A DNA stretch of 64,000 bases. Source: Sorghum bicolor. Lineage: Eukaryota > Streptophyta > Magnoliopsida > Poales > Poaceae. This document shows, in pieces, positions 13,885 to 61,696 of the stretch. Each line of letters starts with the position of its first letter. The stretch's first letter is position 1. Under the pieces are notes generated by a model. It saw only the letters and a program-made list of their open reading frames with translations, ran no database searches and was not told where the DNA came from. Made by a program: the position numbers and the translations under genes. Location of the stretch: positions 21,218,771 through 21,282,770 of the forward strand of contig NC_012878.2 of NCBI RefSeq assembly GCF_000003195.3, written 5' to 3'.

Positions 13885-14351
13885 TGTTGACGATATTTTC
13901 ACTATGATTTTTGACCACTAAAACCATCAACAATGGTTAAGTTTTGGGGATAACACCAAGCAACTAAGTAGTGACATAAGTACAATTCACTTGGTTCCAC
14001 ATGTACATGTCATTATTTGGATGCAGGTGCAAACAACCACTCATCAAGCTCAAATTAAGCAAAGATGATCAAGAACCAAAACCACAACATATCAACAAAA
14101 ATTTAAAGATGACAAGTGGGGACAACATGTGGAGCAAGGTGGTGGGCCAACCCCCCAAGGGTAGGTCGGCCGACACACATTTGGTGGCCCCCACCTGGCC
14201 CACACTCCCACCGACCTCGACACCTTCTAGAAGCTTGGTGGGGCCCACATGGAAGCAATAGGTCGGTCAACCAACCTATGATGTTGGCCCACCTAAAGTC
14301 GATTCACTCCCACCGACGTCCCTATAATGAATATGTGATGGAAACCCCCAC
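13885..14351 (+). mobile_element. Ath-1 3' LTR, first part
   Basis: It begins TGTTGACGATATTTTC and contains CCATCAACA within the first 50 bases, an imperfect inverted repeat of the start. A GGTCGGCCGACA palindrome followed by CATTTGGTGGCCCCCACC lies at 14163-14190. It is cut at 14351/14352 by Tek-1. The continuation is at 29806. Confidence 0.8.
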
Positions 14352-14352
14352 C

Positions 14353-17300
14353 TGTAACAGAACTGCCCAATTATAAGAGATTAAGCCTAATAGTGACCAT
14401 TTGCACAGTCAAGCCATCGAGCTTAAGCCCATATAATCCCGGTAGTCCGTGATATCTTGAAGGATTTCAAACCACATATCGTACGTACAGCCAAGATCAT
14501 AATAAGTTCCACGGTCACCATTCACAATTACATCCAGTTCGCATCATTCGTCAAATACATCGGAGTACTTAAAGTTATTACAAACCAAGTTCTCAAGTAG
14601 TGGAAGCTTCATAGTTTGAAAGTAACACACACACATTTAGTCTGATACAGTGCCATAATTTGATAATTCCCACAAAAGCAAAAGAGAAGGAAGAGTGACC
14701 ATCGCCCTTGGTCTAGTTATCACCCATCGCTGGGTACAGGCAGAGGATGCAATAACCATAGTACATTTGCCCATCTGCAAAACAATATGGGGATAGAACC
14801 CTGAGTACGAGAATGTACTCAGCTAGCCTTACCCGACATAAATCAAAATAAAGACTCTTCAAGGATCATGAAGGCTGTATAGTGGGGTAGCTGAGACTTT
14901 TTGCGAAAAGCACCACTCACTAGAAGTACATCCTGACAGTACTCTCCTTTCTTTTAATTAGCTCAGGTTAGGTATTATTACCTATCATCTAGATTTGCAC
15001 CTGTACTATTTCAAACAAATGTAGTAATATGATGGTACCTCATCATAGCATTCATAAACATTAATCGCCACACAAACCACACTCACCGATCAAGTGAGCT
15101 ACAGATCACCGTATTACACTATCCAGGACCAAATCGCAGGTTCGGCAGGCACCGCCAGTACCCGAGGACCGTTCCGGCGACCGAGGTATCCAAGGTATAC
15201 GAAGGTTGCGCGCCGCACCCTCGTCGTTCTCCTCAACCATTACCAATACAGGGCATGGCGGCTCGACTCCCGGCCCGGATAGTGTTCAGGCTTCGCGGTC
15301 GGAACGACTTATCCTTCCAGCTAAGTGTGGGTCATGCGTTCAACATGACAAGAGGGCCGTCAACGATCGGTCCTTAATCGACACAGGCAGGGGCACTATG
15401 GTCAACCCCACCATAAGACCCTGCCCAGTCTCAATTTCCTTTCCACACTTGGTTACCTTTCTCCATAGCATTATGGCTAATCAAATAGGTGTCCACCTAT
15501 ATCTCGCAGGTGACAGGGAATCACCTAACTTCTACCGGACTAAGCAAGCTAAGCATAGACTCCGCGCTTATCTACATAGGACAAGATAGATAACAAGGGG
15601 TGATATCAAGGAGTAAGTAAGCATCAACGGCGTCAAGCAATTCCTATCACTTAAATGCAACATAGTAGAACAAGCATAATATAACAATTAAGTTAGCGAG
15701 AATAGGGAGGCTTAGAATGCTCTGGGGCTTGCCTTTCTCAAACGTGCTCAGCTTGTGGTCCGGGGACTCCTGCAGCTCTTCTCCTGGCTCTGGTCCTCCC
15801 AGAAGTTCCTGCTCCTCGGTCTCCTCCTGCTCCTCGGGTCCCACATCGTTCTCCTGCGAGCCTGTATGATGCATGTGTGCTCATGAGTGGAGTGCGAGAT
15901 GCCCGGGGTGCAATGCTTATGCAAGTGGGTACCAGACGACCATGACATGGTGCATAGATGACATATGTGGTTATTTCTACAAGGTAGTCAACATCATCCA
16001 AGAACATGTACTTGGATTGAGCATCTATTGCATTCTCTTCTACCAATTGCTTTCATGGTTAACCAGCAAGCTAACATGATGCTTCAAAGATACACCAAAC
16101 ACCCTTTTATTCTATTTAATTTATACACAACAATTCTTATTTTATTTAATCGCTTTTGGACCCACAAAAGTAGCATATGTTTCTGTTTATCAATAAATTC
16201 CATAAAAATTACAGCAGATCACTAGTCAACGATAAAGTCTACCATAAATTTCTCATAATATTTGGACATTTATTTTGGGCTACAAAAATTACAAGATTAT
16301 TCAATATAATTAAGTACAAATACCCTACTGTTGTCTAAGTGTCAAACAACAGATTTCATATTTTTATAAAATACTTGTTAACATAAGAAACACTCACAAA
16401 AATTTCCAGATTAATTGCATGATCCAATTATTTATTAAAAATCATAAACCACTGCCATGCAAGCATTTAAATCATCATAAATCAATTTATACAGCAATTA
16501 ATATGTGACATATTTTTCCCAAAGGCCAATCATCCATGCAGAGCCAACAAAACAAGTCTCCTATTTTTCTGAGTCATATTTTAATTACTATGCATTTTCC
16601 AATTTTCAGCAAAAAACATGGATTAAATATATTTGTACAGAAAAATTGTTTAAACATAACATGCAACCACACCGAACTGTAGATTTAGAATTATAGAACA
16701 CACTACAATTTATTTCACCATTTTTTGAGCCCTGGATCTCAAGATATAGATTTAATACCATTTAAACTATTTTCAGGAAATTATTTTCTGAAAAACCAAT
16801 TCAAATCCGGAACGAAAAACACTAAAGACAACCGGATCTCTACCCGCCTCGGTCCCCCTACGGCTGACAGTGGGTCCCCGACACCACTGGTCAGCGTGAC
16901 CGAGAGGGAGAGCACCTCTGACGAGCGGATCTCGTCGGCGGTGAGGTCTCCGGCCATGGGGTGAGCAGCAACGTGCTCCCCGCAGCGAGGCGGACCCAAG
17001 GGTGCCCTTGGTTCGGCCGGAGGATGACCGGAGCACTCTCGCCGGCATGCATGGCGGCACGGCGGCGCTGCTTGCCGTGGCCAGGCCGCTCCGGTGGAGT
17101 AGAGCGCGCACGGAGTACCGTCTACGCTTCCTCATCTCACTCCGAACCTAACGCGCTAAAGAACAGGCAAAACGGGACAGAAACGGGGAAGTTCCAACGC
17201 GGCGGAGCTCTACGACGAGCTCGGGCGAACTCCGGCGAGAGATTCAGGGTTCACGGAGGGTTTTCACATCGGTAGAGCGTGCGCAGGGGCTTACCGCGGC

Positions 17301-18153
17301 GAAGACGAGCACGGCGGTGGTCTTGGCGCAGATAAAGGGCCACTAACGCGGCCTGCGGCGAGCGGCAGAGCGCTGGCCGGCAATGGCGCCGCGGTGGTTG
17401 CTGCTGCTGCGGCTGCGCTAGCGAGCGGAGAAGAAGAGAGGGAGCGGGAGGGGACAGTATGGCGCCTGGGGGCGCGGGGTGCCGTCCCGACCGGGGTAAG
17501 CCGGTCGGCCAGCGGCGCATCCACGACGCCGGCGTACGGCCGCCACATGGCCGGCGTCAGGTGGAGCAAGACGGGCACCCGCGTGCGGGAGAGGGGAGGG
17601 GGAAACTGGGCGGCGCGGCTTGGCTCGGCCGAAAGGGAGGCGGTTGGCCCAGCAGCGCCTGCCCCTTTTTCTTTTTTCTTTTTTTTTAATTTCTTTTCTC
17701 CAAAAAGCTCAAATAAGATTTGTGAAGCCTTTGCAAATCATTTTAGGGGTTGGAGTAAAAAGAAGAAAGGTTCCCCACAAAATTTCCTGCAATTTTTCTT
17801 TAACATGTAAATTCAAATTCCAAACAGAATTTGAATCACACACCAAAACTAGTTCTAGGTTTTCAATTAAATTCATTTTAGGGAATTTTGTATAAAATCC
17901 ATTCCTCAATTTCCATAGCTCCAAAAATTTCACAAAATTACTCTTAATTCTTCTAACACCTATTTCAACTTGTTTTAGGCATCACAAGGGTTTTTGAACA
18001 AACATACTATTTCTATCATATTTAGTTCATATGAAATAAAGCACATAAAATCACACTTGAATGAATGGCATGCTCATGGATGCTATGCTTGATGAGAATG
18101 CTTATGGATGAGTTTATGAGACTAAGTGCATGCTTAACACCTAGGGTGTTACA
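14353..18153 (-). mobile_element. Tek-1 3' LTR
   Basis: The 3801-base LTR runs from TGTAACAGAAC (minus-strand 3' end) to GGGTGTTACA (minus-strand start). Compared with the 5' copy it lacks about 108 bases near 15066, where the right copy has a CATAACCCAAGTGTTCC stretch. It holds a GC- and CpG-rich island at about 16850-17650 with AT-rich sequence on both sides. Open frames inside it are not conserved as proteins. Confidence 0.9.
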
Positions 18154-18190
18154 ACCCTTCCCCCCTTAGGGAAATCTCGTCCCGAGATTT
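18154..18190 (-). other. Tek-1 polypurine tract and adjacent hairpin
   Basis: On the minus strand CCTAAGGGGGGAAGGGT abuts the 3' LTR. Directly upstream is a perfect 8-base stem with a 3-base loop (AAATCTCG, TCC, CGAGATTT; 18172-18190). Tek-2 has the identical hairpin at 44333-44351. Confidence 0.75.
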
Positions 18191-22953: not shown

Positions 22954-23995
22954 CTACTCGCTATGGTCACTGTACATGACGGAGCCTTCCTTGTCCTCAT
23001 CTCCACTAGCAGCTACCTCCAACTCTAGATCCTCATCCATCTCATCCTCAGAGTCTAACTCAGCTGCTCCAGGTAGGTGGTGAGGGTGGAGCTAGTTATG
23101 CAGCTGGTGGATCTCCTCATGCAGGTTCTCATTGTACTCCTCAGTATTAGCTAGCTGCTGCTCAAGCTCTAGTTGTCGGGCCCTCAGGGTGTCCTCCTCG
23201 TGCCAGGATTCATTCCTCTGACCAAGCACATGAACTAGCATGCGCTCGCTGTTCCTATGAGTGGTGGCCACCTTGTCTCTCTACTCTCTCACTGCGAGCA
23301 GGTCCTGATTCAGCTCACTGTTCTTCTAGACTGCCTGATACCTCTCTCGGGGTACGCGGGCCAACTCTGCCTGTAACCTCTCAACCTCAGTGTCAAACTC
23401 GCGTTGCAACTGACGCTTCTCATCCTGAACTGTGAGAAGGGACCCAGACAAGCATCAAACAATGCTCCAGACCCCCATAGGTCTTCATCAAAGCGAATAT
23501 AGCACTCATAGCTGCACTGTCACTGTGCTGATCCTCACCCGCACTCCTCTCTAGAGCGATCACTTCGGACTGATCCCACACTGAAGTGTAGGGGTCGCCC
23601 TGAGGAAACACCCCAGCGAAGGCATGGGCTAGCTCCTGCAGAAAACTCTCCATGATGTACCTCAAAACAGCAAAAGCTGCACTACTGGCACCCTGGAAAG
23701 GCGTGGTACCGTGGGACTCGTACACCCAGCCACCCCAGGCGGGGTCACCTCCACTGGTAGGGACTACTGCCTCGATCCCCACTAGGGTCCCATCACCAAG
23801 CTGCTCCTTGTTCTAATAGTAGTGAGGTTCCCTTCCTTCGGGATGCCCCATCGAGCTGAGGACCCACCAAAGCAAGGTGGGCATCCCAAACTCCTCCAGG
23901 AACTTGCTCTTATGACGTGAGCTCCTAGCTGCCAACTGATGGCGAGGGGCCCACCCACCAGTGGACTTGAGAGCGGTGAGCCTAGTGCGTGCCAT
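22954..23995 (-). pseudogene. Tek-1 ORF0: histone H3-tail-like protein, frame-shifted copy
   Basis: The ATG at 23995 opens MARTRLTALKSTGGWAPRHQ, aligned to residues 1-19 of histone H3 (ARTKQTARKSTGGKAPRKQ). It continues LAARSSRHKSKF. Here Arg8 is Leu and Lys14 is Trp, but APRHQLA is closer to H3 than the Tek-2 copy. A stop at 23813 and shifts near 23450 break the rest: a globular segment (GIEAVVPTSGGDPAWGGWVYES) and a coiled coil. The final acidic stretch (GDEDKEGSVMYSDHSE) ends at 22954. The span is 1042 bases, not a multiple of three. There is no histone fold. Confidence 0.75.
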
Positions 23996-25871: not shown

Positions 25872-25890
25872 AAACCTTGCTCCGATGCCA
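25872..25890 (-). other. Tek-1 primer-binding site (initiator tRNA-Met, mutated)
   Basis: On the minus strand TGGCATCGGAGCAAGGTTT lies 2 bases inside the 5' LTR. It differs at two positions from the TGGTATCAGAGC of Tek-2, which pairs with the 3' end of initiator tRNA-Met. Confidence 0.75.
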
Positions 25891-25892
25891 GC

Positions 25893-28800
25893 TGTAACAG
25901 AACCACCCAAATTATAAGAGATTAAGCCTAATAGTGACCATTTGCACAGTCAAACCATCGAGCTTAAGCCCATATAATCCTGGTAGTCCGTGAAATCTGG
26001 AAGCATTTCAAACCACATATCGTACGTACAGCCAAGATTGTAATAAGTTCAGTGGTCACCATTCACAATTACATCCAGTTCGCATCATTCATCAAATACA
26101 TCAGAGTACTTGAAGTTATTACAAACCAAGTTCTCAAGTAGCGGGAGCTTCATAGTTTGAAAGTAACACACACACATTTAGTCTGATACAGTGCCATAAT
26201 TTGATCATTCCCACAAAAGCAAAAGAGAAGGAAGAGTAACCATCGCCCTTGGTCTAGTCATCACCCATCGCTGGGTACAGGCAGAGGATGCAATAACCAT
26301 AGTACATTTGCCCATCTGCAAAACAACATGGGGATAGAACCCTGAGTACGAGAATGTACTCAGCTAGACTTACCTGACATAAATCAAAATAAAGACTCTT
26401 CAAGGATCATGAAGGCTGTATAGTGGGGTAGCTGAGACTTTTTGCGAAAAGCACCACTCACTAGAAGTACATCTTGACAGTACTCTCCTTTCTTTTAATT
26501 AGCTTGAGGTTAGGTATTATTACCTATCATCTAGATTTGCACCTGTATTATTTCAAACAAATGTAGAAATATGATGGTACCTCATCATAGCATTCATAAA
26601 CATTAATCATCATAACCCAAGTGTTCCATAGTCCTTACTATGAGGACAGGGTCATGTCAAGTGCTCACTACCTAGGAGCGATGGCGATTCGAATCGATTT
26701 TTGACCAGCTGGCGAGTTTATTCCCCACACAAACCACACTCACCGATCAAGTGAGCTACAGATAACCGTATTACACTATCCAGGACCAAATCGCGGGTTC
26801 GGCAGGCACCACCAGTACCCGAGGACCGTTCCGGCGACCGAGGTATCCAAGGTATACGAAGGTTGCGCGCCGCGCCCTCATCGTTCTCCTCAACCATCAC
26901 TAATACAGCGCATGGCGGCTCGACTCCCGGCCCGGATAGTGTTCAGGCTTCGCGGTCGGAACGACTTATCCTTCCAGCTAAGTGTGGGGCATGCGTTCAA
27001 CATGACAAGAGGGCCGTCAACGATCGGTCCTTAATCGACACAGACAGGGGCACTATAGTCAATCCCACCATAAGACCCTGCCCGTTCTCAATTTCCTTTC
27101 CACACTTGGTTACCTTTCTCCATAGCATTATGGCTAATCAAACAGGTGTCCACCTATATCTCGCAGGTGACAGGGAATCACCCGACTTCTACCGTACTAA
27201 GCAAGCTAAGCATAGACTCCGCGCTTATCTACATAGGACAAAATAGATAACAAGGGGTGATATCAAGGAGTAAGTATGCATCAACGGCGTCAAGCAATTC
27301 CTATCACTTAAATGCAACATAGTAGAACAAGCATAATATAACAATTAAGTTAGCGAGAATAGGGAGGCTTAGAATGCTCCGAGGCTTGCCTTTCTCAATT
27401 GTGCTCGGCTTGTGGTCCGGGCACTCCTGCAGCACTTCTCCTGGCTCTGGTCCTCCTAGAAGTTCCTGCTCCTGGGTCTCCTCCTACTCCTCGGGTCCCA
27501 CCTCGTTATCCTGCGAGCCTGTATGATGCATGTGTGCTCATAAGTGGAGTGCGAGATGCCCGGGGTGCAATGCTTATGCAAGTGGGTACCAGACGACCAT
27601 GACATGGTGCATAGATGACATAGGTGGTTATTTCTACAAGGTAGTCAACATCATCCAAGAACATGTACTTGGATTGAGCATCTATTGCATTCTCTTCTAC
27701 CAATTGCTTTCATGGTTAACCAGCAAGCTAACATGATGCTTCAAAGATACACCAAACACCCTTTTATTCTATTTAATTTATACACAACAATTCTTAATTT
27801 ATTTAATCGCTTTTGGACCCACAAAAGTAGCATATGTTTCTGTTTATCAATAAATTCCATAAAAATTACAGCAGATCACTAGTCAACCATAAAGTCTACC
27901 ATAAATTTCTCATAATATTTGGACATTTATTTTGGGCTACAAAAATTACAAGATTATTCAATATAATTAAGTACAAATACCCTACTGTTGTCTAAGTGTC
28001 AAACAGCAAATTTCATATTTTTATAAAATACTTGTTAACATAAGAAACACTCACAAAAATTTCCAGATTAATTGCATGATCCAATTATTTATTAAAAACC
28101 ATAAACCACTGCCATGCAAGCATTTAAATCATCATAAATCAATTTATACAACAATTAATATGTGACATATTTTTCCCAAAGGCCAATCATCCATGCAGAG
28201 CCAACAAAATACGTCTCCTATTTTTCTGAGTCATATTTTAATTACTATGCATTTTCCAATTTTCAGCAAAAACATAGATTAAATATATTTGTACAGAAAA
28301 GTTGTTTAAACATGACATACAACCACACCGAACTGTAGATCTAGAATTATAGAACACACTACTATTTATTTCACCATTTTTGGAGCCCTGGATCTCAAGA
28401 TATAGATTTAATACCATTTAAACTATTTTCTAGAAATTATTTTCTGAAAAACCAATTCAAATCCGGAACGAAAAACACAAAAGACACCCGGATCTCTACC
28501 CGCCTTGGTCCCCCTGCGGCTGACAGTGGGTCCCCGACCCCACTGGTCAGCGTGACCGAGAGGGAGAGCACCTCCGACGAGCGGATCTCGTCGGCGGTGA
28601 GGTCTCCGGCCACGGGGTGAGCACCAACGTGCTCCCCGCAGCAAGGCGCACCCAAGGGTGCCCTTGGTTCAGCCGGAGGATGACCGGAGCACTCCCGCTG
28701 GCATGCATGGCGGCACGGCGGCGCTGCTCGCCTTGGCCAGGCCGCTCCGGTGGAGTAGAGCGCGCACAGAGTACCGTCTACGCTTCCTCATCTCACTCCG

Positions 28801-29804
28801 AACCTAACGCGCTAAAGAACAGGCAAAACAGGGAAGAAATGGGGAAGTTCCGACACGGCGGAGCTCTCCGATGAGCTCGGGCGAACTCCGGCGAGAGATT
28901 CAGGGTTCGTGGAGGGTTTTCACCTCGGTAGAGCGTGCGCAGTGGCTTACCGCGGCGAAGACGAGCACGACGGTGGTCTTGGCGCAGAGAAAGGGCCACT
29001 AACGCGGCCTGCGACGAGCGGCGGAGCGCTGGCCGGCAATGGCGCCACGGTGGTCACTGCTGCTGCGGCTGCGCTCGTGAGCGGAGAAGAAGAGAGGGAG
29101 CGGGAGGGGACAGAATGGCGCCTGGGGGCGCGGGGTGCCGTCCCGACCGGGGTAAGCCGGTCGGCCAGCGGCGCGTCCACGACGCCGGCGTATGGCCGCC
29201 ATGTGGCCGGCGTCGGGTGGAGCAAGGTGGGCGCCCGCGCACGGGAGAGGGGAGGGGGAAACTAGGCCACGCGGCTTGGCTGGGCCGAAAGGGAGGCGGT
29301 CGGCCCAGCAGCGCCTGCCCCTTTTTCTTTTTTTTTGAATTTCTTTTCTCCAAAAAGCTCAAATAAGATTTTTGAAGCCTTTGCAAATCATTTCAAGGGT
29401 TGGAGTAAAAAGAAGAAAGGTTGCCCACAAAATTCCCTACAACTTTGCTTTAACATGTAAATTCAAATTCCAAACAGAATTTGAATCACACACCAAAACT
29501 AGTTCTAGGTTTTCAATTAAATTCATTTTAGGGAATTTTGTATAAAATCCATTCCTCAATTTCCATAGGTCCAAAAATTTCACAGAATTACTCTTAATTC
29601 TTCTAACACCTATTTCAACTTGTTTTAGGCATCACAAGGGTTTTTGAACAAGCATACTATTTCTATCATATTTAGTTCATATGAAAAAAAGCACATAAAA
29701 TCACACTTGAACGAATGGCATGCTCATGTGATGCTATGCTTGATGAGAATGCTTATGGATGAGTTTATGAGACTAAGTGCATGCTTAACACCTAGGGTGT
29801 TACA
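25893..29804 (-). mobile_element. Tek-1 5' LTR
   Basis: 3912 bases between TGTAACAGAACC and GGGTGTTACA. It matches 14353-18153 closely apart from the 108-base segment the other copy lacks. The GC-rich island is at about 28480-29330. Confidence 0.9.
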
Positions 29805-29805
29805 G

Positions 29806-30740
29806 CCCACCCTTGATCTATGGCGGTGGGAAGGTCGTTTGATCCAACGGTGGAGAAGAGGGAGCACGCGGATCGCTGACGTGGCGTTGGAGTAGCTCCT
29901 ACTCCATCTCTCCCCTATAAATACCCCCTTAGAGAGCCTAGTTAAGCATGATGTATCTTAGGAAGAGATACTCTTAGCTAAGTGTGAGAATAGAGAGAAG
30001 AGAGTGAGGAGTTCCCCGAGGAGGAGTCCTGACCTGTCGGGAGTCTTCCTCTAGGAGCGCCTCAGCGGATCCTTATCTTCTAGTAAGTCTTCCTTCTAGT
30101 TGCCTTTCATTTGTGTACTTATAGTATTTACTTTCTGCCTTTGTTTATTTTAAGTATACAATCGGCCTACTGGCACATTGCTTTGCCTTGTGTGAAGTGC
30201 TCGAAACCTTAGATAGGTCTAGAGTAGTAGAATTAGTGTAGACGTGGTGTCTAGACTAAGTCTGCCCTTGTGGACTTCTTGTCGCACCTAAAGAACACCA
30301 ACAATGAAGCGTGATAGGCCTCTGCTAGACATTAGGAGTTCTCTTTAGTGTGTTGTTAGGCAAGTTGTAAATAATAGGTTGCCTGCATGGTAGCTGCCTA
30401 GGGAAGTGTTTCGCCACACCCTTTTCACCTATCGGCCACAGTAGGAAGGGAGTTAACTCTCACTATACTTACGGTAGCTTAGCCAGAAGCCAAATACTAT
30501 AAATACCTCTCCACACAATCCTAAGCCCTTTGATCATCATCCGACGACTCAATTGGTCTAGTTAATCCACTTCTCATTCCCCTTGGAAAATATGATACCT
30601 GGAATACTCCTAGTGAAGTGCTGCATTGACCACCATCCGCTTGCGGTTAAACCGTTTGCCACTTCTGGTGTCACACAAGCATTTCTAGTTCTGTACTAAG
30701 GACTGACAATCCTAGGCAGTAACACTAAGAAGAGTCAACA
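29806..30740 (+). mobile_element. Ath-1 3' LTR, second part
   Basis: Continuation of the LTR cut at 14351, giving about 1402 bases in all. It matches the Ath-3 LTR: the GGTTTGATCCAA-like stretch, TCCTACTCCA, a TATAAATA box at 29916-29923 and the final AAGAAG...CAACA. Near its end (30677) AAGCATTTCTAG resembles the start of a primer-binding region (see the fossil-site finding). Confidence 0.85.
29916..29923 (+). promoter_or_regulatory. TATA box of the Ath-1 LTR
   Basis: TATAAATA after CTCTCCCC, equivalent to 51133-51140 in Ath-3. Confidence 0.6.
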
Positions 30741-39843: not shown

Positions 39844-40391
39844 AGCCCGACCTTTTTAATCTGACATTTTTGGGCCATGTATATATTTTTCGAGACAATT
39901 ATACTTCTAGAAACACGCACGAGCAAGCGGGCACGTAGAGGAGGCAGGCCCAGGGCAGGCGCCCTAGAGATGAGGGCGGGTGCCCTGCCCCTGGCTCCCC
40001 TCACCGCCGACTTTTTCCGTTACGATAATCTCGCCCATGTCTATCCAAAAAACCCTACGGATGGATTGTTACGCAAGTATGGCGGCGGGATTAACCCATG
40101 GAAATCCCTAGAGGCACTTTTTGACCCCTATATAAACAGACCCCTGACGTTAGCTTTCAACACCAATTCATTCAATCATTCTTTCCTTCCTCAATTAGAG
40201 CTTGCTTAGTCCCTCGCTGCTCGAATGGTCGACGAGTTCAACCTCGACTAGGAGATCATTCCCTAGGTCCCAGCCAACACAAAGCGACAGCTAGGAGCCA
40301 TGCCATCACGCCAACGCAGCTCCACCCAATCCTACTATGCCCAACTAGTTCTCACTGCGCCGCCATCGTCAAGGTGCCAGCCGGCACAAGG
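39844..40391 (+). other. Ath-2 post-pol region with internal TATA box
   Basis: No complete gene. A pair of GGCGCCC / GGGTGCCC boxes is at about 39957-39990. TATATAAA at 40129-40136 is followed after ~90 bases by an ATG at 40225 (MVDEFNLD then stop). The layout, TATA plus leader plus ATG after integrase, suggests a separate promoter for the post-pol gene that Tek-2 has displaced. Confidence 0.5.
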
Positions 40392-43300
40392 TGTAACAGA
40401 ACCGCCCAAATTATAAGAGATTAAGCCTAATAGTGACCACTTGCATAGTCAAACCATCGAGCTTAAGCCTATATAATCCCGGTAGTCCGTGAAATCTCGA
40501 AGGATTTCAAACCACATGTCGTACATACAGCCAAGATCGTAATAAGTTCAGTGGTTACCATCCATAGTTACATCCAGTTTCGAAAACATTCATACGATAC
40601 ATCGGAGTGCTTAAAGTTATTACAAGCCAAGTTCATAAGTAGCGGAAGCTTCATAGTTCGAAAATAACACACACATACTTAGTCTGATACAGTGCCATAA
40701 TTCAGTCATTCCCACAAAAGCAAAAGAAGAGACGGAGTGACCATCGCCCTTGGTCTACTCATCGCCCATAGCTGGGTACAGGCAGAGGATGCAATAACCA
40801 TAGTACATTTGACCATCTACAAAACAACATGGGAATAGAACCCTGAGTACGAGAACGTACTCAGCTAGACTTACCCGTCATAAACTAAAAAAATAAAGAC
40901 TCATCAAGGATCATGAAGGCTATATAGTGGGGTAGCTGACAACCTTTTTGCATAAAAGCACTCTTCTGTTAACCAAAATTCTATAGAGGTCCTCCTTCTT
41001 TTAACTAGCTCAAGTTGAAGTATCATTACCTATTCTCTAGGTTTGCACCTGTACTATTACAAGCAAGTATAGTAATATGATGGTACCTCATCATAGCATT
41101 CATGCAACCACTTATCATTATAACCCAAGTGTTCCATAGTCCTTACTACGAGGACGAAGCTCATGTCAAGTGCTCACTATCCAGGAGCGATGGCGATTCG
41201 AATCGATTTCTAACCAGCTGGCGAGTTTATTCCCCACACAAACCACACTCACTGATCAAGTGAGCTACAGATCACCGTATTGCACTATCCAGGACCAATT
41301 CGCGGGTTCGACAGGCACCGCCCATACCTGAGGACCGTTCCGGCGACCGAGGTATCCAAGGTATACAAAGGTTGCACGTCGCGCCCTCGTCGTTCTCCTC
41401 AACCATCACCAATACAGCACGTACATCGAGCTGATTCCCGGCCCGGATAGTGCTCAGGCTTCGCGGTCGGAACAACTTATCCTTCCAGCTAAATGTGGGG
41501 CATGCGTTCAAATGACAAGAGGGCCGTCAACGATCAGTCCTTAATCGACACAGGCAGGGGCACTACAGTCAACCCACCATAAGACCGTGCCCGGTCTCAA
41601 ATTTCCATTCCACACTTGGTTATCCTTTCCCAAAGCAATCACTGCTTAAATCAAGCAGGTATCCACCTATAACTCGCAGGTGACAGGAAATCACCCGACT
41701 TCTACCGGACTAAGCAAGCTAAGCATAGACTCCGTGCCTATCTACATGGGACAAGGTAGATAAACGAGTAGGGATAGCAAGGAGTACATATGCATCAACG
41801 GTATCAAGCAATTCCTATCACTTAAATGCAACATAGTAGAACAAGCATAATATATACTGTAAGTTAGCGAGAATAGGGAGACTTAGAATGCTCCGGGGCT
41901 TGCCTTTCTCAAACGTGCTGGGTCTGTGATCCGGACACTCCTGCAGTTCTTCTCCGGGTTCCGGTGCTCCCAGAGGTTCCTGCTCCTGGGTCTTCTTTGG
42001 CTCCTCGGGTCCCACTTCGTTCTCCTGCGAGCCTGTATGATGCATGTGTGCTCATGAGTGGAGTGCGAGATGCCCGAGTGGATGTTTGTATGAGAAAGTA
42101 CCAAATGACCATGACATAATGCATAGGTGATTTAATTGGTCATGCTCTTTACAAGGTAGTCAACATCATCCAAGAACATGTAATTACACTAAGCATCCAT
42201 TTCCTTCTTTCCTACAGAATTATTTTCAAGTGTAACCAGCAACTCACAAGATACTTCAAAGATACACCAAACCCCTTTTATTCTACTTAATCTACATATA
42301 ACAATTCATAATTTCTTTATTCATTTCTAGGCCCATCAAAATAGCATGTGGTTATGTTTATCAATAAATTCCACAAAAATTACAGGAGACTACCAGTCAA
42401 GCATAAAGTCCACTATGAATTTTTCATAATTTTTGGATACTTATTTTGAGCTACAAAAATCACAAGATTAATTAATAAAGGCAAGTACCATTACTCTACT
42501 GTGGTATATGTGTCAAACAGCAGATTTCATATTTTTATAATTTGCCTAATGTCATAAGAAATACCCACAAAAATTTCCAGATTAATTGCATGATGCAATT
42601 ATTTATTAAAAATCATAAACCACTGCCATGCAAGCATTTAAATCATCATAAATTCATTTACTCAGCAAATAATGTGTAGCAACATTTTCCTAGTGATTAA
42701 ACATACATGCAGAGCCAAGAAAACAAGTTTCACATTTTTCCGAGTCATATTTTAATTACTATGCATTTTCCAAATTCAGCAAAAACATGGATTAAATATA
42801 TTTGTACCGAAAAGTTACTCAAACATGACATGCAATTACATCAAACCGTAGATCTGAGAATAGAGAGCATACCAAAATTTATTTCACCTGATTTGGAACT
42901 GTAGAACTCAAGATATGGATTTTACAAGTTTTAAATCAATTTCTGAAAAATCTTTATTTAAGAAAACCGACGGAAAACGCTAGATTCACCCGGATCCACA
43001 CCGGCACAGGCGCGGACAGGTGGGATCCAGGGGTCGAGGCCCCACAGGTCAGCCATGCAGAGCTCCGGCCAACTTCGGTCGGCCGGCTTTCGCCGACGGC
43101 GAGGTCTCCGGCCACGAGGTGAGCATCAGCGTGCTCCCCGCAGCGAGGCGCATCCAGGGGTACCCTCAGATTGGCCGGAGGATGACCGGAACACCTCCGA
43201 CGAGCGTGCATGACGGCGCTGCTCGCCGTGGCTAGGCCGCTCCGGTGTGGTAGAGCGCGCGCAAAAGGTCCTCCGAGCTTCCCCATCGAGCTACGGACCT

Positions 43301-44315
43301 AACGCGCTAAAGAGCGAGCGAAACTAGGCAGGATATCGCAGGATCCGCCGCGGTGGAGCACTCCGGTGAGGTCGGAGCAACCCCGGCGAGCGATTCACGG
43401 TGCACGGCTGCTTCTCACCTCGGTAGAGCGTACGCAGGGGCTTACCGCGGCGACGGCGAGTGCGCTGGTGCTCTTGGCGTCGAGGTTAGAGCTCTGGTGC
43501 GACCGGCGGCGACCGGCGGAGCTTTCTCCGGCAATGGCACGGGTGGAGCTGCTGCTGCTGCTGCTGTTGCGCGTGCGCGGGGAGGAAGAAGAGAGAGGGG
43601 GAGGCAGGCGACAGAATGGAGGGAGTGGTCTGGGGGCGCGGGGCGGCGTCCCGACCAGGGGGGTGGAGGTGGCCGGCCGCGGCGCGTCCAACGCCGGCGT
43701 ACGGCCGCCACGTGGCCGGCGCCGGGTGGAGCGAGGCGGGCGCCGCGTGGGCGGGAGAGAGGGGAGGGGGAGCGGGCCGCGCTGTCTAGCTAGGCCGAAA
43801 GGGAGGCGGGTCGGCCCAGCAGCGCCTGTCCCCTTTCCCTTTTTTTTGAATTTCTTTTCTCAAATTCTTTCTAAATTCATTTGGACTATTTAGAAATCAT
43901 TTTCACCCTTTTCCCCCAAATGCAAAGTTGTTCCAAAACAAAAATCTTACAACTTTGTTTTAATAAGCAAGACCAAATTCCAAATAGAATTTGACTTACA
44001 GATTAAAACTAACTCTAGGTTTTCAAATAAATTCATTTTGGGGATTTTTGTATAAATACCATTTCTCAAATTCTGTGGCTCCAAAAATTGCACAAAAATA
44101 TTCTTAAATCTTCTTACACACCATTCAACCTAGTTTGAATATTTCACAATTTTAGAAGCAAGCATCATATTTTTAACACATTTAAATCACATGGAATAAA
44201 GTACATAAAATCATATTTTAGATGGATGACATGCTTATGTGATGCTATGCTTGATGAGAATGCTTATGAATGCTTTGGTAAGACTAAGTGCATGCATAAC
44301 ACCTAGGGTGTGACA
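40392..44315 (-). mobile_element. Tek-2 3' LTR
   Basis: 3924 bases between TGTAACAGAACCGCCC and GGGTGTGACA (the family end is TGTTACA; one base changed). The GC-rich island is at about 42950-43850. The pol frame of the element runs about 10 codons into this LTR (see findings). Confidence 0.9.
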
Positions 44316-45700
44316 GCCCTTCCCCCTTAGGGAAATCTCGTCCCGAGATTTGGGTTACTAACCATTTCTTATGAAACTTGGGATAAACTGTTTTTAGATA
44401 ATCCTCGGTTTCCCAGGTGGCATCCCTATCGTCATGATGACTCCATACCACCTTGTATGTTTTGACAACTCTGTTTCGGGTTACTCGCTCCTTGGTATCC
44501 ACGATTCCCACTGGCTGCTCTTTATACTCCAAGTCTGCTTTTATTTTGATCCCTCGGGGTTCAATTCTTTGCTCAGGCACTTTCAAACATTTCCGTAGTT
44601 GCGACACATGGAAAACTGGAAAGATCGAGCTCATCTCTTCAGGTAGCTGAATCTTATAGGCCACTGGGCCTTTCCTCTCTAGCACTTGGTACGGTCCCAC
44701 ATATCTGGGTGCAAGCTTGTTTCGAACTCGGAAACGTTGAACTTTCTTCATTGGCGTAACCTTGAGGTACACATAGTCACCTATGTTGAATTCAAGTGGC
44801 CTTCTTCTCTTATCAGCATAACTCTTTTGTCGTGATTGTGCCGCTTGCATATGTTGCTGTATAATCTGCACCTTTTTCTCGGCATCATTCACAAAGTCGA
44901 TACCATAGTATCTCCTTTCACCAGGTTCCACCCAGTTTAACGGAGTTCGACATCTCCGCCCATACAAAGCTTCGAACGGGGCCATCTTGATGCTCTCTTG
45001 ATAACTATTATTGTATGAGAATTCAGCCAGAGGTAACCATGATTCCCACGATCCCCTGGATGATAGCACACAGGCCCTAGCATATCTTCTAACACTTGAT
45101 TTAACCTTTCAGTTTGACCCGAGGTCTGGGGATGATACGCCGTGCTTCATATCAGACTGGTCCCCAAACTCTTATGCATTCACTCCCAGAAGTGAGCGGT
45201 GAACTGTGGTCCTCTATCTGATATGATGGTCTTGGGAATACCATGCAACTTGACAATCTCAGCCATATATATATCAGCATACTCAGGAGGTCTGTATGTG
45301 TTCTTAACTAGAATGAAATGAGCCGACTTGGTCAATCGATCTACGATTACCCAAATCGAGTCATTCCCTTTCCTCGTTGCTGGTAAACCTATGATAAAGT
45401 CTATACTGACCTCTTCCCATTTCCACTCTGGAACTGATAACGGTTGCAACAGACCTGCAGGTTTCATATGTATAGCCTTGACTCTGCAACACGTGTCGCA
45501 ACGGGTTACATATGCGGCTATTTCTTTCTTCATCTTGGTCCACCAAAAGTGGGGTCTTAGGTCTTGATACATTTTACTACTGCCAGGATGAATAGAAAGC
45601 TTAGAGAGATGGGCTTCATCCATGATGCGATTCTTCAATTCACGATCTTTCGGGACTACTAACCGATGTTGAGACCACAGTACCCCTTTCTCATCGACTC
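44284..45700 (-). pseudogene. Tek-2 integrase with chromodomain-like tail
   Basis: The zinc region [18 protein letters not shown] with CDTCCRVKA lies at about 45620-45470. The core carries SIDFIIGLP (Asp) and [15 protein letters not shown] (Asp). A break at 45070-45180 with stops removes the clean frame around the Glu helix. The C-terminal piece (45069-44284) is open: GERRYYGIDFVNDAEKKVQ, FNIGDYVYLKVTPMK, FPVFHVSQLRKCLKVPEQR and then VVKTYKVVWSHHDDRDATWE, a chromodomain-like tail. The frame ends at 44284, inside the 3' LTR. One damaged stretch separates it from function. Confidence 0.85.
44316..44351 (-). other. Tek-2 polypurine tract and adjacent hairpin
   Basis: Minus strand CTAAGGGGGAAGGGC abuts the LTR. 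The hairpin AAATCTCG-TCC-CGAGATTT is at 44333-44351, as in Tek-1. Confidence 0.75.
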
Positions 45701-47230
45701 GAAATTGAGTTTTTGGGTCATCCTTGATCTTCTCTTTGATGTGGAAAATACCCTTGTCTATCTTCTGACCTTCAATGACTTGACTCTCGAGTGAACAACT
45801 GAGCTGTATGTGACATAAGACTTCAGGATGCATGAGATTGAAACCATCTTCAAACAACGGTTGAACCACTTGATAGTGCGGTTTACGGCTCAAAGCATCT
45901 GCTACTACATTAGCTTTGCCTGGATGATAGTGAACCTCTAGGTCATAGTCCTTGATTAACTCTAACCACCGTCGTTGCCTCATATTCAGCTCGGACTGAG
46001 TGAAGATATACTTCAAACTCTTATGATCGGTATAGATATGACACTTATTTCCCAGCAGATAGTGTCTCCAAATCTTCAAAGCATGCACTACTGCTGCTAA
46101 CTCGAGGTCGTGAGTTGGGTAGTTGCCTTCGTGCTTTCTCAACTGTCATGAAGCGTAAGCTATCACCCTGCCATCTTGCATCAACACACACCCCAAGCCA
46201 CTTTTCGACGCGTCGCAAAACACATCAAAAGGCTTCTCGATATTGGGTTGCGCCAGAACGGGAGCAGTGGTTAGCAACTTTCGCAAGGTGCAGAAGGCTA
46301 GCTCACACCCTTCCGTCCAGACAAACTTATGATCCTTTTGTAGCAAACTAGTCATCGGCTTAGCAATCTTGGAGAAGTCGGGTATGAAACGACGATAATA
46401 CCCGGCCAGACCAAGAAAACTTCTAACTTCCGAGACAGAAGTTTGTGCCTTCCAGTCCATGACTTCCTGCACTTTTGATGGATCCACAGCAATCCCTTCT
46501 TCAGATAAAATGTGTCCTAGAAAAGGAACTTTCTTCAACCAGAACTCACACTTGCTGAACTTGGCATATAACTGGTGCTCTCGTAATCGTGTTAACACGA
46601 TTCTCAGATGCTCGGCGTGATCTTGCTCATTTTCTGAATAAACCAGAATATCATCGATAAACACCACAACAAACTTATCCAATTCTGGCATAAAGACTGA
46701 ATTCATCAGATACATGAAGTATGCAGGAGCATTCGTCAACCCAAAGGACATGACAAGATACTCATACAACCCATATCTGGTGGAAAAAGCAGTCTTCGGG
46801 ATATCTTGTGGACGAATCTTGATTTGGTGATACCCAGACCTCAAATGTATCTGGGAAAACACTTTTCCTTGGATAACTGATCAAATAGGATATCAATCCT
46901 CGGCAAAGGATACTTATTCTTGATTGTCACTGCATTGAGCGGACGATAGTCCACGCACATGCGCAAAGATTGATCCTTCTTTTTCACAAACAACGTCGGA
47001 CAACCCCATTCTGATGAGCTTGGCTGGATGAACCCTTATCCAGTAACTCTTTTAGTTGATTCTTCAACTCCGCGAGTTCATTCGGCGGCATCCGGTACGG
47101 CCTTCTAGATATTGGTGCTGTACCCAGTATCAACTCGATTGCAAACTCTACCTCCCTGTCTGGTGGAAGTCCTGATAATTCCTCGGGAAAAACATCAGGG
47201 AACTTACATACCACGGGTATGTGTTCTAGT
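45701..47230 (-). pseudogene. Tek-2 reverse transcriptase and RNase H
   Basis: RT starts after [20 protein letters not shown]. It has a shift near 47000 and another near 46865, then an open block 46862-46146: [32 protein letters not shown], and an intact [12 protein letters not shown] catalytic box. RNase H begins [22 protein letters not shown] at 46143-46145 replaces a codon that is CGA in Tek-1 (ASR against AS-stop), a C-to-T change. The rest ([25 protein letters not shown]) is open. Catalytic acids are all present. Confidence 0.85.
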
Positions 47231-47650
47231 GGAACCACCTGTACTGCACATGAAAGACTAGCGAAGTCTAACCGTCGGGGTAGCTTGACCTGAAGCACAC
47301 TTTCCCCCTGCGGGTCTTTGAGGGAAAGAGTTCTATTCTCGGCATCTATAACTGCACCCCAGTCAGTCATCTTATTCATTCCAATGATGACATCCAGAAC
47401 CAGCCCTGGCTTGGCCACAAGGTTCACACGAAACCTTCGGCCACTGATATCCAAGGTAACTCCTGTTACTGTTTTGTTAGTCAACACATCAGCCCCGGCT
47501 GAGCTGATGCGATAGCCATAACCCAACTAAGTAACTGGCTGGTCATGCTTTTGTGCAAATGCTTGGCTCATGAATGAATGCGATGATCCAGAATCAAACA
47601 AAACAACTGCAAGATGTTGGTTGACAGGAAACATACCAGCTGTTACCGGT
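47231..47650 (-). pseudogene. Tek-2 protease
   Basis: VVLFDSGSSHSFMSQAF has the catalytic DSG. A TAG at 47527-47529 follows QKHDQPVT, then [17 protein letters not shown] and [12 protein letters not shown] continue in frame. Apart from that stop, the domain matches the retropepsin pattern of this family. Confidence 0.8.
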
Positions 47651-48801
47651 TCTCCTTCTGGGATCTCCTCGATCGAGGTATGATGCACACGAGCTGGATA
47701 GGTTGGCTGTTGCCTCTTGGGGTAGGGACATTCCTTAGCAAAGTGCCTCATCTTGTGGCAGTTGTAGCATGGACCCTTGGTCGCATTGTTGGCGGCAGGT
47801 GCCGCAGCATGAATTGCTTTTGGCTTGGCAGGAGCTATCGCCACCTTGTACGGCTTCTGCTGCGTTGGGTGTCCGGTGTTCCTTCTCTGCGGCGGCCGGA
47901 ACCTAGCACCCGGGGCAGGAGGACGATACTGCTGTCGCCCTGCCACTGGTGCCCTGAACTGGGATGACCCGGCTTCGAAAGCCCTCTTACGAGACTTGGA
48001 TGCACTATAGCTATTGTTATTGTTCTCCTAGGTCAGACAGTCACTGATATAAGCATTGAAGGTAGCCCTGGCTCCTGTACCCATGGTCTTCAGCATCTTT
48101 GGGTTCAAGCCTCTCTGAAAACTAGCAATCTTCTTGGCCTCCGTGTTCACAAACTCAGGGGCGTAGCGAGCGAGATTGTTAAAAGCGTGTAGATACTCCT
48201 TTACAGATTTTGTCCCCTGGGACAGCCTCATGAACTCCCCAACCTTCATTTCCACCACACCTGGAGGAATATAATTTCCCCGAAATGCAGTGGTGAAGCG
48301 GTTCTAGGTGATTGGGGTCCCCTCTGGGTAGGTAGTACGATGATGGGACCACCAAATTCCAGCGGGTCCTTGCAACTGGTGTGCTGCATACTCAGCCTTG
48401 AGTTCTTCTATCATCCGAAGAAGACAGAACTTCTGCTCCATAGTGTTGATCCACTCATCTGCTTCAAGCGGTTCCAGAGCCTCCTTGAAGACTGGTGGCT
48501 TGGTATCCATGAAGTCCTTGAAAGAGCTCTACTGGTTGACTTCACGACCGCCCTGGTTATCCCCACGGCGGGTGTTGTCAGCTATGTTGCATAGGGCTTC
48601 TTCCATGTTGTGTTGCATTTGTTCCATGTTGCGTTGACTCCCCAGAAACTGCGCGAAAAACACATCCGTAGTATACGGAGGAGGCGGTGGTGGTGGGTGT
48701 GATGGTGCTCTCTCCTCGTTCCGTTGAGCCCCACCTCCGGAGGCACCTGCTCCAAGACCGGGGTTGCTGTTACCCCCGCCACGCGTTTGCACCATCTGCA
48801 T
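47651..48801 (-). pseudogene. Tek-2 gag
   Basis: The ATG at 48801 opens MQMVQTRGGGNSNPG, in the same context as Tek-1. The gag core (GIWWSHHRTTYPEG, HAFNNLARYAPEFVN, SFQRGLNPKMLKTM) lies at 48510-48028. A complete zinc knuckle CYNCHKMRHFAKEC (CX2CX4HX4C) is near 47765-47724. Three stops break the frame, at about 48528, 48303 and 48027. Only 6 bases separate the second ATG (MVQTRGG) from the first, so either could be the start. Confidence 0.8.
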
Positions 48802-49115: not shown

Positions 49116-50159
49116 CTACTCGCTATGGTCACTGTCCATGCCGGAGCCCTCCTCGTCCTCATCTCCACTAGCAGCTGCTCCTATCTCGGGATCCGTGTCA
49201 ATCTATTCCTTAGATTCTAGCTCAGCTGCCCCAGGCAGAGGGTGAGGGTGGAGCTGGTTATGGAGCTGGTGGATCTCCTCATGCAAGTTCTCATTGTACT
49301 CCTCGGCATTAGCTAGCTGCTGCTCTAGCTCTAGCTGTCGGGCCCTCAAAGTGTCCTCCTCGTGCCAGGCTTCATTCCTCTGACCAAGCACATGGACTAA
49401 CATGCGCTCGCAGTTCCTGTGAGCAGTAGTCACCCTGTCTCTATGCTCTCTCACAGCAAGTAGGTCCTGGCTCAGCTCACTGTTCTTCTGAACCGCCTGA
49501 TCCCTCTCTTGGGTCACGCGGGCCAACTCTGCCTGCAGCCTCTCAACCTCAGTGTCGAACTCACGCTGCAGCTGGCACTTCTCATCCTGGACAGTGAGAA
49601 GGGACCCAGATAAGCACCCCAAACAACGCTCCAGGCCTCCATAGGTCTTCATCAAAGCGTACATAGCACTCATAGCTATGCTGTCACTGTGCTGGTCCTT
49701 ATCCGCACTCCTCTCTAGAGCAATCACCTTGGACTGATCCCACATCGAAGTGTAGGGGTCACCCCGGGGAAACACCCCAGCGAAGGCGTGGGCCAGCTCC
49801 TGTGGAAACCTCTCCATGAGGTCCCTCAGAACTGCAAAAGCTGCCCTGCTGGCACCGTGGAAAGGCGTGACACCTCGGGACTCGTACACCCAGCCGCCCC
49901 AGGCGGGGTCACCTCCACTGGTAGGGACAACTGCCTCAATCCCCACCAGGGTCTCATCCCCAAGCGGCTCCTTATCCCAATAGTAGCGAGGCTCCCTTCC
50001 TTTGGGATACCCCATCGAACTGAGCACCCTCCAAAGCAAAGTGGGCATCCCAAACTCCTCTAGGAACTTGCTCTTATGTCGTGAGCTCCTGGCTGCCAAC
50101 GGATGGTGAGGGGCCCGCCCACCAGTGGACTTACGAGCGGTGAGCCTTGTGCGTGCCAT
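49116..50159 (-). CDS. Tek-2 ORF0: histone H3-tail-like, coiled-coil protein (one internal TAG)
   Basis: I chose the ATG at 50159; an upstream TTG is in frame but the protein clearly starts MARTRLTARKSTGG. Residues after Met align with the histone H3 tail: ART, TARKSTGG, AP and LA are identical, with Lys9 in its exact A-R-K-S context. Lys4, Lys14 and Lys23 are Arg; residue 27 is His. Then come a globular part (about residues 32-190, FLEEFGMPTLLWRVLSSMGY, PAWGGWVYES, MSAMYALMKTYGGLERCL) and a heptad-rich coiled coil (about 200-300: LQREFDTEVERLQAELARV and on). A TAG at 49203-49205 interrupts; the same frame then gives an acidic tail (ASGDEDEEGSGMDSDHSE) and stops at 49116-49118, 348 codons in all. 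No histone fold is present. The function is unknown. It lies upstream of gag, after a CCCTTTGCAG splice-acceptor-like site. Confidence 0.8.
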
Positions 50160-50168
50160 CTGCTGCAA

Positions 50169-50598
50169 AGGGAATACCCTGAGTAAGATGGAGGATTATC
50201 TTTAATTATTTTATTCAGAATTGGGACAGATTAAATTAAGGGGGAAAGTAAGCAATGATATGAAATGAACATGATGCATGCACGGACTTACGATCTCACA
50301 AACTTAGAAACAAAAGTTAACACTAAGCAGTATATGTGGTGGCACACAGCGTTCTCTCATAACGTAACTAGCGTTCTAAGCAAGAACGTGATTAGTGTAC
50401 CTGCAGAAAACTCATTTCAGCCCAACCACAGTATGCTCATGCAGAATAAGAATTTAAAGCTATACACCCCACATACACAGACACCCGTCCATGCATATGA
50501 CGTGTTACTACCCACATCATCGCCCTAATGACGGCATCGCCTCTCAGGACGGAATTCCCAACATGCGGTACTGTTCCCAAGCACACAAACCATGGGTG
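50169..50598 (-). other. Tek-2 leader, part next to ORF0
   Basis: 430 bases without a supported ORF, similar to the Tek-1 leader. It ends at the Ath-3 insertion; GGGTG at 50594-50598 is the left target-site duplication. Confidence 0.6.
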
Positions 50599-52188: not shown

Positions 52189-52196
52189 AGCATTTC

Positions 52197-52214
52197 TGGC
52201 GCCGTTGCCGGGGA
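52197..52214 (+). other. Ath-3 primer-binding site (tRNA-Asp)
   Basis: TGGCGCCGTTGCCGGGGA is complementary over 18 bases to the 3' end of plant tRNA-Asp as I know it. It begins 9 bases after the LTR end. It is unmutated. Confidence 0.85.
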
Positions 52215-60052: not shown

Positions 60053-60071
60053 AAACCTTGCTCTGATACCA
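60053..60071 (-). other. Tek-2 primer-binding site (initiator tRNA-Met)
   Basis: On the minus strand TGGTATCAGAGCAAGGTTT lies 2 bases inside the LTR end. It starts with the standard TGGTATCAGAGC that pairs with initiator tRNA-Met. Confidence 0.85.
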
Positions 60072-60073
60072 GC

Positions 60074-60485
60074 TGTAACAGAACCGCCCAAATTATAAGA
60101 GATTAAGCCTAATAGTGACCACTTGCATAGTCAAACCATCGAGCTTAAGCCCATATAATCCCGGTAGTCCGTGAAATCTCGAAGGATTTCAAACCACATG
60201 TCGTACATACAGCCAAGATCGTAATAAGTTCAGTGGTTACCATCCATAGTTACATCCTGTTTCGAAAACATTCATACGATACATCGGAGTGCTTAAAGTT
60301 ATTACAAGCCAAGTTCATAAGTAGCGGAAGCTTCATAGTTCGAAAATAACACACACATACCTAGTCTGATACAGTGCTATAATTCAGTCATTCCCACAAA
60401 AGCAAAAGAAGAGACGGAGTGACCATCGCCCTTGGTCTAGTCATCGCCCATAGCAGGGTATAGGCAGAGGATGCAATAACCATAG
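60074..60485 (-). mobile_element. Tek-2 5' LTR, 3' end only
   Basis: 412 bases matching 40392-40803 with about 8 differences. Cut at 60485 by M2; CATAG (60481-60485) would be the target-site duplication of M2. Confidence 0.85.
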
Positions 60486-61696
60486 TGTTGATATTTGGTA
60501 ACGCAATTAGAAAATGATCCGCAAGCGCACGGATATCGGTGAGCATTTCACCCGGGAGGTTATCCAGAGTTATCGTATTTATATTTTTACCACTGGGAGA
60601 AAGGGTGCATCTGACTAACCAAATCTATTGCTACTACCCCTTTAGGCTACAAAGAATGTCTCTCGATGTGAGTGATGTATAGAGAAGACTGCAACCGTAG
60701 TCTCGTTCTAACCTTGGTAAGGATGATCTACTGTTCTATTGGGGAGGCTCACGGAATCTAGACAACACAAAGGATGTTCGACCCGCACCTATAAACCTAC
60801 CCGTCCTGCTAACGAGATGTGATCTGCAAAGGTAACTCGGAATTGTCACGTTCCTCGCTACTACCACGGTCCAGCTAGTCAGGGGATATCTATGAGTACC
60901 CTAGCCTAAACACCACGTTTACACTAACAAGTGATTACTCTAATACTCAACCGGAAGAGGATTAAAGTAAACTCATAAACCAAAGAACGATAAAACAAGA
61001 ACTTACTAGTATTAGAAGTCGAATTACTGAAGAATCTTAGAAGCAAGCCTCGGGTTAGGAGACTTGATCCCGCATGTACAACTCGGAGTAGACACCAACA
61101 GGCCGGCCTTCCTCCGATCTACACCTCCACTCTATCTCTCTCAATCTAGTAGAAACTAGAAGATCTATTTCTACTTTACATTGGTTGCTAAGCCTAAAAA
61201 GAAATATTATTTAGAGAAGAGGTTTTCCTTCGAGGGCACCCCTCAATCTCTATGATAATTTCTTGTCTCCTCCAGGGCCAGAGGGGGTCTCCTTATATAG
61301 TCCTCCCCTTCTATGCATTTTTGGGTCGATAGGCGAGGTGGTACTATGTTATTCTGGATCCAATAGGTTGGTGGAACGTCGTGTGCGAAGAGAGTCCGGA
61401 ACGGAGTCCAGAGGGGGGCGGGCGCCCAGGTCCTCAGGGCGGGCGCCCTGGGCCTGGCCCCTTTCGGGCTCCGCTTCCTTCCCATGGCTTCTTTAGTCTT
61501 CTAGATGGTAGAAAATTGCGCGATGGGTTGATATCTCTATGTAATCCCGACATGTGGGCCTTTCTTCCTTATTTCCTGATAACCCCCTGTAGAAATAGAC
61601 AAACACCAAAACTCGTGGAATTCTGTCAGATAAAACCCTAAGTCTAGATGTTGATTTCATTTGGATCCTTTTCTTTATTTATTTGATAATTAAATT
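60486..61696 (-). mobile_element. M2: minus-strand LTR of the Ath-2 family, cut by Tat-2
   Basis: It reads TGTTGATATTTGGTAACGC, the reverse complement of the Ath-2 LTR end, and follows that LTR throughout: a GATCCGCAAGCGCACGGATA stretch, a CCTTATATAGTC promoter (about 61288, minus) and two GGGCGCCC boxes (61418-61450). Only the last ~40 bases of the LTR are missing, lost behind Tat-2. No internal region is seen. Confidence 0.85.

Follow-up and report, generated by a model that had tools for sequence, protein, structure and literature searches.

ORF0, the reading frame that lies upstream of gag in the Sorghum bicolor retrotransposon Tek-2, opens with a copy of the histone H3 N-terminal tail that is almost certainly a selected mimic of it. 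Comparison of copies and database relatives confirms that the tail is conserved in two large families of one genome and in several further lineages, with selection on it in one of the families, and we suggest that it may deceive the plant factors by which chromatin is read and elements of this kind are silenced. The window, meaning the whole stretch of 64,000 nucleotides analysed, carries on its minus strand a large-LTR Ty3-gypsy element in two copies, Tek-1 and Tek-2, and the features that concern ORF0 are as follows.

49203..50159 (-): ORF0 of Tek-2, an open frame of 318 aa with TAG at codon 319
50067..50159 (-): H3-tail-like N-terminus of Tek-2 ORF0, residues 1-31, of low confidence in the structural model and read as disordered
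49785..50051 (-): globular part of Tek-2 ORF0, residues 37-125, modelled as alpha-beta-beta-beta-alpha, a dsRBD-like fold
49251..49685 (-): modelled long helix of Tek-2 ORF0, residues 159-303, a probable coiled coil
49116..49202 (-): acidic tail of Tek-2 ORF0, behind the in-frame stop
50160..50178 (-): splice-acceptor-like stretch GGTATTCCCTTTGCAGCAG adjoining the ORF0 ATG
22954..23995 (-): ORF0 of Tek-1, the second copy in the window, with the H3-like tail present and the frame broken further on

The Tek-2 product begins MARTRLTARKSTGGRAP, from an ATG at 50159 of the minus strand that opens MARTRLTARKSTGGRAPHHPLAARSSRHKSK. Aligned with histone H3 (ARTKQTARKSTGGKAP), its start (ARTRLTARKSTGGRAP) is identical at 13 of the 16 residues after Met, a count already made in the first-pass annotation and upheld here. 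The likeness runs further than the 16 residues to which it had been confined: in Tek-1, whose ORF0 (23995->22954) reads MARTRLTALKSTGGWAPRHQLAARSSRHKSK, the stretch ...APRHQLAARSSRHKS tracks H3 PRKQLATKAAR to about residue 26. By alignment, the resemblance thus covers about 22-26 residues and lies at the very N-terminus of the protein. A phmmer search of Tek-2 ORF0 residues 1-31 against 177,635 PDB sequences returned H3-type chains with a best E of 1.3e-5, and among the best 60 of the 132 matches at E <= 1 every one had an E of 2e-4 or better. For each of eight N-termini the local alignment score to H3 was reached by none of 20,000 composition-preserving shuffles; with a cruder measure, the number of ungapped identities, two of the eight were equalled, by 1 and by 2 of 20,000 shuffles.

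The annotation placed ORF0 at 49116..50159. The ATG at 50159 stands; the open frame of this copy ends at 49203, where codon 319 is TAG (49203-49205), and the acidic-tail region down to 49116 lies beyond that stop. Elsewhere in the genome, numerous copies have a frame that is open across 347 codons. An in-frame stop occurs no more than 80 nt upstream of the ATG in all 124 distinct genome copies, which supports the start of ORF0 at this ATG.

The elements themselves are defined by the following features.

14348..18157 (-): 3' LTR of Tek-1
25888..29808 (-): 5' LTR of Tek-1, beginning TGTAACACCC
about 40386..44319 (-): 3' LTR of Tek-2, beginning TGTCACACCC
60068..60486 (-): remnant of the 5' LTR of Tek-2, followed by the primer-site-like TGGTATCAGAGC
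44284..47946 (-): Tek-2 pol region in several frames, with protease, RT, RNase H and integrase
44365..44502 (-): chromodomain-like tail of the Tek-2 integrase (Pfam Chromo E 4e-4, below the curated cut-off)

The LTRs, at 3.8-3.9 kb, exceed 3 kb, and the two of Tek-1 are about 96% identical across their aligned parts; we take TGGTATCAGAGC to be an initiator-tRNA primer site. Tek-2 has the Ty3-gypsy domain order in broken frames, with gag judged by its zinc knuckle alone, and a copy of the second ORF0 family described below (L133) has gag to integrase in the same order, its integrase ending in a Tekay-like chromodomain tail that itself contains a stop. The domains, the LTRs and the Pfam match all agree with the earlier description of a large-LTR chromovirus with a chromodomain-like integrase tail. 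In the passages of Gao et al. (2012; PMC3485330) that describe them, Retrosat2, RIRE3, RIRE8 and FRetro3 are, like Tek-2, Ty3-gypsy elements with LTRs longer than 3 kb and an ORF0 upstream of gag-pol, in keeping with the extra ORF before gag that the annotation had mentioned for RIRE3/RIRE8-type elements. The same passages give the LTR start TGTCACACCC, common to Tek-2, for Retrosat2 and RIRE8, and report ORF0 in elements of rice, maize, sorghum and Brachypodium.

Beyond its tail ORF0 is no histone: the model contains no histone fold, and there is no histone family among the Pfam matches of the window ORF0. A globular part, a coiled coil and an acidic tail had been described from the letters, and the model is consistent with this, predicting a domain with the alpha-beta-beta-beta-alpha order of the dsRBD fold and then a long helix. 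The best structural rows for the globular part are plant DRB7.2 and the second dsRBD of DCL4 (DCL4 dsRBD2); at the sequence level there is no match to a dsRBD family among the 25 of 109 families listed. The last helix of dsRBDs opens with the RNA-binding motif KKxAK. Placed by eye, the corresponding site reads FHGAS in Tek-2, and the relatives P0012, P0008 and P0024 keep the Ala without the lysine pair; the dsRBD-like fold apparently lacks the usual RNA-binding lysines. ORF0 and this fold were known: the 5' aORF proteins of maize Tekay and sorghum Sb7, as described in parts of PMC11728184 (2024), are the same kind of protein; a weak Foldseek match with a plant DRBM protein is given there, together with a proposed role in RNA silencing. 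Section 2.5 of that paper does not discuss the N-terminus of the aORF, and it is the H3 tail that is treated here.

Relatives of ORF0 were sought among 5.8 billion proteins, which gave 58 at E <= 1, and by an alignment search that gave 333, of which the best 120 were listed; 159 proteins were retrieved. The full tail is present in 37 of the 159, and the others begin inside or downstream of it, with the exception of P0111, a 139-aa fragment with 12 unrelated residues and no tail before its coil. For the 122 proteins without a full tail the starts alone were read; P0002, P0004, P0072 and P0145 begin inside the tail. Ten retrieved proteins begin at an internal MPTLLW, from which point alone the P0008- and P0024-type lineages were read; for one protein with this start, P0001, near-identical counterparts in the genome carry the tail upstream. 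The full-tail proteins comprise one whole long ORF0 (P0012) and many short ones, most of 186-210 aa, that have no globular domain and retain the H3-like tail together with the coiled region and the acidic end (for example MARTKRTARKSAGGRAPRHRLAPR in P0037 and MARTKKTPRKSTGPKGVPRHQLAPR in P0055). Lys9 is present in 36 of the 37, Lys or Arg at position 4 in all 37 and Ser10 in 35, the filter that defined the set itself demanding some tail residues and so biasing the counts for K/R4, T6, A/P7 and K9 upward. At position 7, 20 have Ala and 17 have Pro. Arg is found at position 2 in 27 and at position 8 in 29, and it is replaced mostly by His, Cys or Gln, as would fit the decay of methylated CpG. 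A search with ORF0 residues 1-60 alone found four fragments, all already known and none with a full tail, and tblastn confirmed no relative of ORF0 in viral contigs and genome contigs.

The genome from which the window comes (a 709-Mb assembly) was scanned with ORF0, giving 3255 first-look candidates; the best 125 were scored, and all of them align from residue 1. With P0055 as the query a second large family was found in the same genome (best 150 of 2396 candidates scored), and a third candidate set was represented by the best 123 of 3151; sampling by best score in this way favours copies with intact tails. After removal of 5 repeats from 132 loci and addition of the 2 window copies, there were 77 Tek-type and 52 second-family ORF0s, of which 72 and 52 are distinct. 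The second-family product has 234 aa and begins MARQKQTPRKRTGPKGVPRHQLAPR or MARWKQT..., keeping K4-Q5-T6 of H3. The tail is found in all 72 Tek-type and all 52 second-family ORF0s, one of the latter having a stop at tail position 3. Lys9 is kept in 72 of 72 and 52 of 52 (124 of 124 together) and Lys or Arg at position 4 in the same numbers, with Arg there in the Tek-type tail; R2 is kept in 71 of 72 and 50 of 52, and R8 in 68 of 72 and 51 of 52. The presence of the tail in the second window copy and in so many copies of the same genome rules out a single odd copy, and among the relatives examined no intact one that reaches the tail region is without the H3-like block whose loss the annotation had proposed to look for. 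At position 3 the second family has Gln, Trp, Ser or Leu and the neighbours to the right hardly change; this position may be under a different selection from that on its neighbours.

Eight representative tails (Tek, P0012, P0037, P0055, P0070, P0050 and two of the second family) show which residues hold. A1, T6, R8, G12, P16, L20 and A21 are also kept, and position 18, Lys in H3, is always His. A7 is changed to Pro and S10 to Arg in whole families, and T3, Q5, T11, G13 and K14 vary as well. The annotation had singled out the TARKSTGG block around Lys9; these changes make a focus on TARKS too narrow.

The nucleotides upstream of the ATG are also shared. An AG lies no more than 3 nt before it in all 124 copies, and the mean pyrimidine share of the preceding 20 nt is 64% in the Tek family and 70% in the second, where the upstream sequence is TTACTAAT and then CTTACCCTCTACAG, followed by G-ATG. 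This suggests a putative splice acceptor at the ORF0 ATG and a leader intron in both families. We also note a TACTAAT-like branch site before ORF0 in the second family (L029-L060).

Purifying selection on the tail, which the annotation had proposed to check by dN/dS, is shown in the second family, where neutral decay is not seen. In a Nei-Gojobori comparison of its Q-type (31) with its W/S/L-type (20) copies, tail codons 2-25 give a dS of 1.53 and a dN of 0.060 (ratio 0.039) and the rest of ORF0 a dS of 1.36 and a dN of 0.060 (ratio 0.044), with silent sites near saturation and copies picked by match score; the tail is under the same degree of constraint as the remainder of ORF0, and no greater. 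Variants common to at least three copies, taken as having passed through replication, comprise 2 nonsynonymous and 17 synonymous changes in the tail, of which codons 5-25 account for 0 and 15, as against 158 and 63 among singletons outside it (p 2e-7 for the whole tail). The two shared nonsynonymous variants are at position 1 (Ala to Gly, 11 copies) and position 3. Singletons within the tail are likewise poor in nonsynonymous changes (12:14 in the second family, 10:11 in Tek), as expected if picking the best-scoring copies enriches for intact tails; this sampling should affect the contrast of the two subfamilies less. In the Tek family, selection is evident outside the tail, with nonsynonymous to synonymous changes of 22:99 among shared variants and 145:90 among singletons (p 2.5e-15). 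The shared variants of the Tek tail (3:6) are too few and selection is not seen there (p 0.16), nor does this tail exceed the rest of ORF0 in constraint (p 0.60).

The tail was probably derived from a host H3 coding sequence. Each of the eight representatives matches H3 at 13-16 of 22 residues, while tails of different main groups match one another at 12-17, and those within the group of P0055, P0070 and the second family at 20-22 of 23; H3 thus falls inside the variation of the tails, as would be expected if the tail had been copied from H3 and had then drifted under constraint. Descent from H3 looks likelier than convergence since the eight jointly contain 20 of the first 22 H3 residues; the two that are missing are K18, which is replaced by His throughout, and T22. 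In the remainder of the protein these ORF0s are 24-52% identical, with three closer pairs at 69-88%. A CENH3 tail was provisionally set aside as the source on the basis of the CENH3 sequence.

These observations are best explained if ORF0 serves Tekay/Retrosat2-type chromoviruses as an accessory protein displaying a mimic of the H3 N-terminal tail. Cleavage of the initiator Met in front of Ala would give a free A1-R2-T3-K/R4 end like that of H3, and the long helix would oligomerize ORF0 such that each complex shows several tails. Lys9, perhaps methylated by host SUVH enzymes, could then let host H3-tail factors bind, whether readers of R2, K4 and K9me2 of the ADCP1 kind or H3K9 writers, and this binding might weaken the silencing of the element or carry its particles to heterochromatin. 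That the tail works through host readers or writers of the H3 tail seems to us somewhat the better bet. On sequence grounds an ADCP1-type reader is the best single candidate: passages of PMC6318295 describe ADCP1 as reading R2, K4 and K9me2 of H3 without direct contact to A7, R8 or S10, and it is R2, K/R4 and K9 that every ORF0 family keeps, while A7 and S10 vary between families. Against this, R8, T6, G12, P16 and L20 are kept though they are not among the ADCP1 contacts named in those passages, and T3 and Q5 vary; because the fit is only partial, we have slightly lowered our estimate for ADCP1 itself, which is now a tentative one. Classical chromodomain reading is disfavoured by the changes A7P and S10R, which perhaps also speak against the K9 methyltransferases, and a simple ARKS mimic is made less likely by the occurrence of such changes in whole families. 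A bolder form of the proposal, which we regard as possible and as yet speculative and which the partial fit to ADCP1 has likewise made us rate slightly lower, is that a grass retrotransposon lineage captured the 5' coding end of a host H3 gene and has retained it as a decoy, oligomeric and open to methylation at K9, for titrating the H3K9me2 reader ADCP1 and/or the SUVH-CMT3 loop, with the dsRBD-like domain acting on the DCL/DRB side, thus forming a two-armed anti-silencing protein in hundreds, perhaps thousands, of chromovirus copies.

The annotation had offered three binding partners for the tail: silencing enzymes, for which it would be a decoy, H3K9 readers, and the element's own chromodomain-like tail. 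A mimic at the true N-terminus suits this general idea, and the last of the three is the weakest. It belongs to a reading, rather unlikely in our judgement, in which the integrase chromodomain of the element binds the tail, or a host reader binds it and tethers the pre-integration complex to heterochromatin, the tail thereby helping to choose insertion sites without countering silencing. Elements with ORF0 in both families do have a chromodomain-like integrase tail. That of Tek-2 matches in the PDB 2m2l_A, annotated as uncharacterized (E 3e-4), and Clr4 (E 0.0044), the remaining chromodomain chains being at E 0.1 or weaker. In the Clr4 alignment, however, it keeps the cage Trp and has His as the third aromatic, the first lying outside the aligned part, and group II chromodomains are described, in the portion of PMC3350952 that deals with them, as being without the first and usually the third cage aromatic. 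On both counts we have given less weight to a main role in binding the chromodomain of the element itself.

Less probable still is that the tail is kept as a nuclear localization or importin-binding signal. The H3 tail itself may serve in this way, and the ORF0 tail is basic, N-terminal and read as disordered in the model; grass 5' ORFs are moreover predicted to be nuclear (PMC11728184, section 2.5). A plain signal, however, would need neither the retention of the non-basic A1, T6, G12, P16, L20 and A21 nor a His that always replaces K18. We consider it improbable that the tail, once captured, survives only as a basic arm for binding nucleic acid beside the dsRBD-like domain, with H3 readers uninvolved: the basic tail does adjoin that fold, but its conservation is specific to the order of residues and the dN/dS of 0.04 comes from the second family, which is without the dsRBD-like domain. 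Chance or compositional resemblance, for which it can be said only that the basic stretch is short, is rejected on the phmmer E of 1.3e-5, on the 0 of 20,000 shuffles and on conservation across families.

To our knowledge this would be the longest H3-tail mimic in a mobile element. As judged from its alignment, ORF0 is a histone mimic in the usual sense, an otherwise unrelated protein in which a modifiable stretch of histone sequence is copied; it shares R2, K4 (or R4) and K9 with H3 and differs in having no histone fold after the tail and His in place of K18 in the eight representatives. Viral proteins that similarly imitate a modifiable stretch of the H3 tail include influenza NS1 (ARSK), SARS-CoV-2 ORF8 (ARKS) and adenovirus protein VII (AKKRS), as listed in passages of PMC10208167; whereas these are motifs of 4-5 residues, the ORF0 mimic has about 22, stands at the true N-terminus, belongs to a plant LTR retrotransposon and is kept across lineages. 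The ORF0 products were assigned mostly to metabolic enzymes by homology modelling in the relevant part of PMC3485330, and the word 'histone' occurs neither in that paper nor in PMC11728184. In line with the annotation, which knew of no such report, we found none of an H3 tail in a retrotransposon ORF among the matches listed from open-access full texts. For the question of how very abundant retrotransposons of plants coexist with H3K9/CHG silencing or escape it, a selected copy of the H3 tail offers a concrete, peptide-sized test, and it would give a possible role to ORF0, which is without an accepted function in the literature.

Two further insertions are apparent in the window. A younger LTR element is nested in the leader of Tek-2 (50599-59689), with LTRs at 50599-52188 and 58100-59689 that are 99.1% identical and with ORFs of 753 aa (52343-54604) and 284 aa (55879-56733), both on the plus strand. 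The leader of Tek-1 contains an insertion of roughly 1.07 kb (24039-25109) that is absent from Tek-2, and a stretch 75.5% identical to it lies at 61696-62742.
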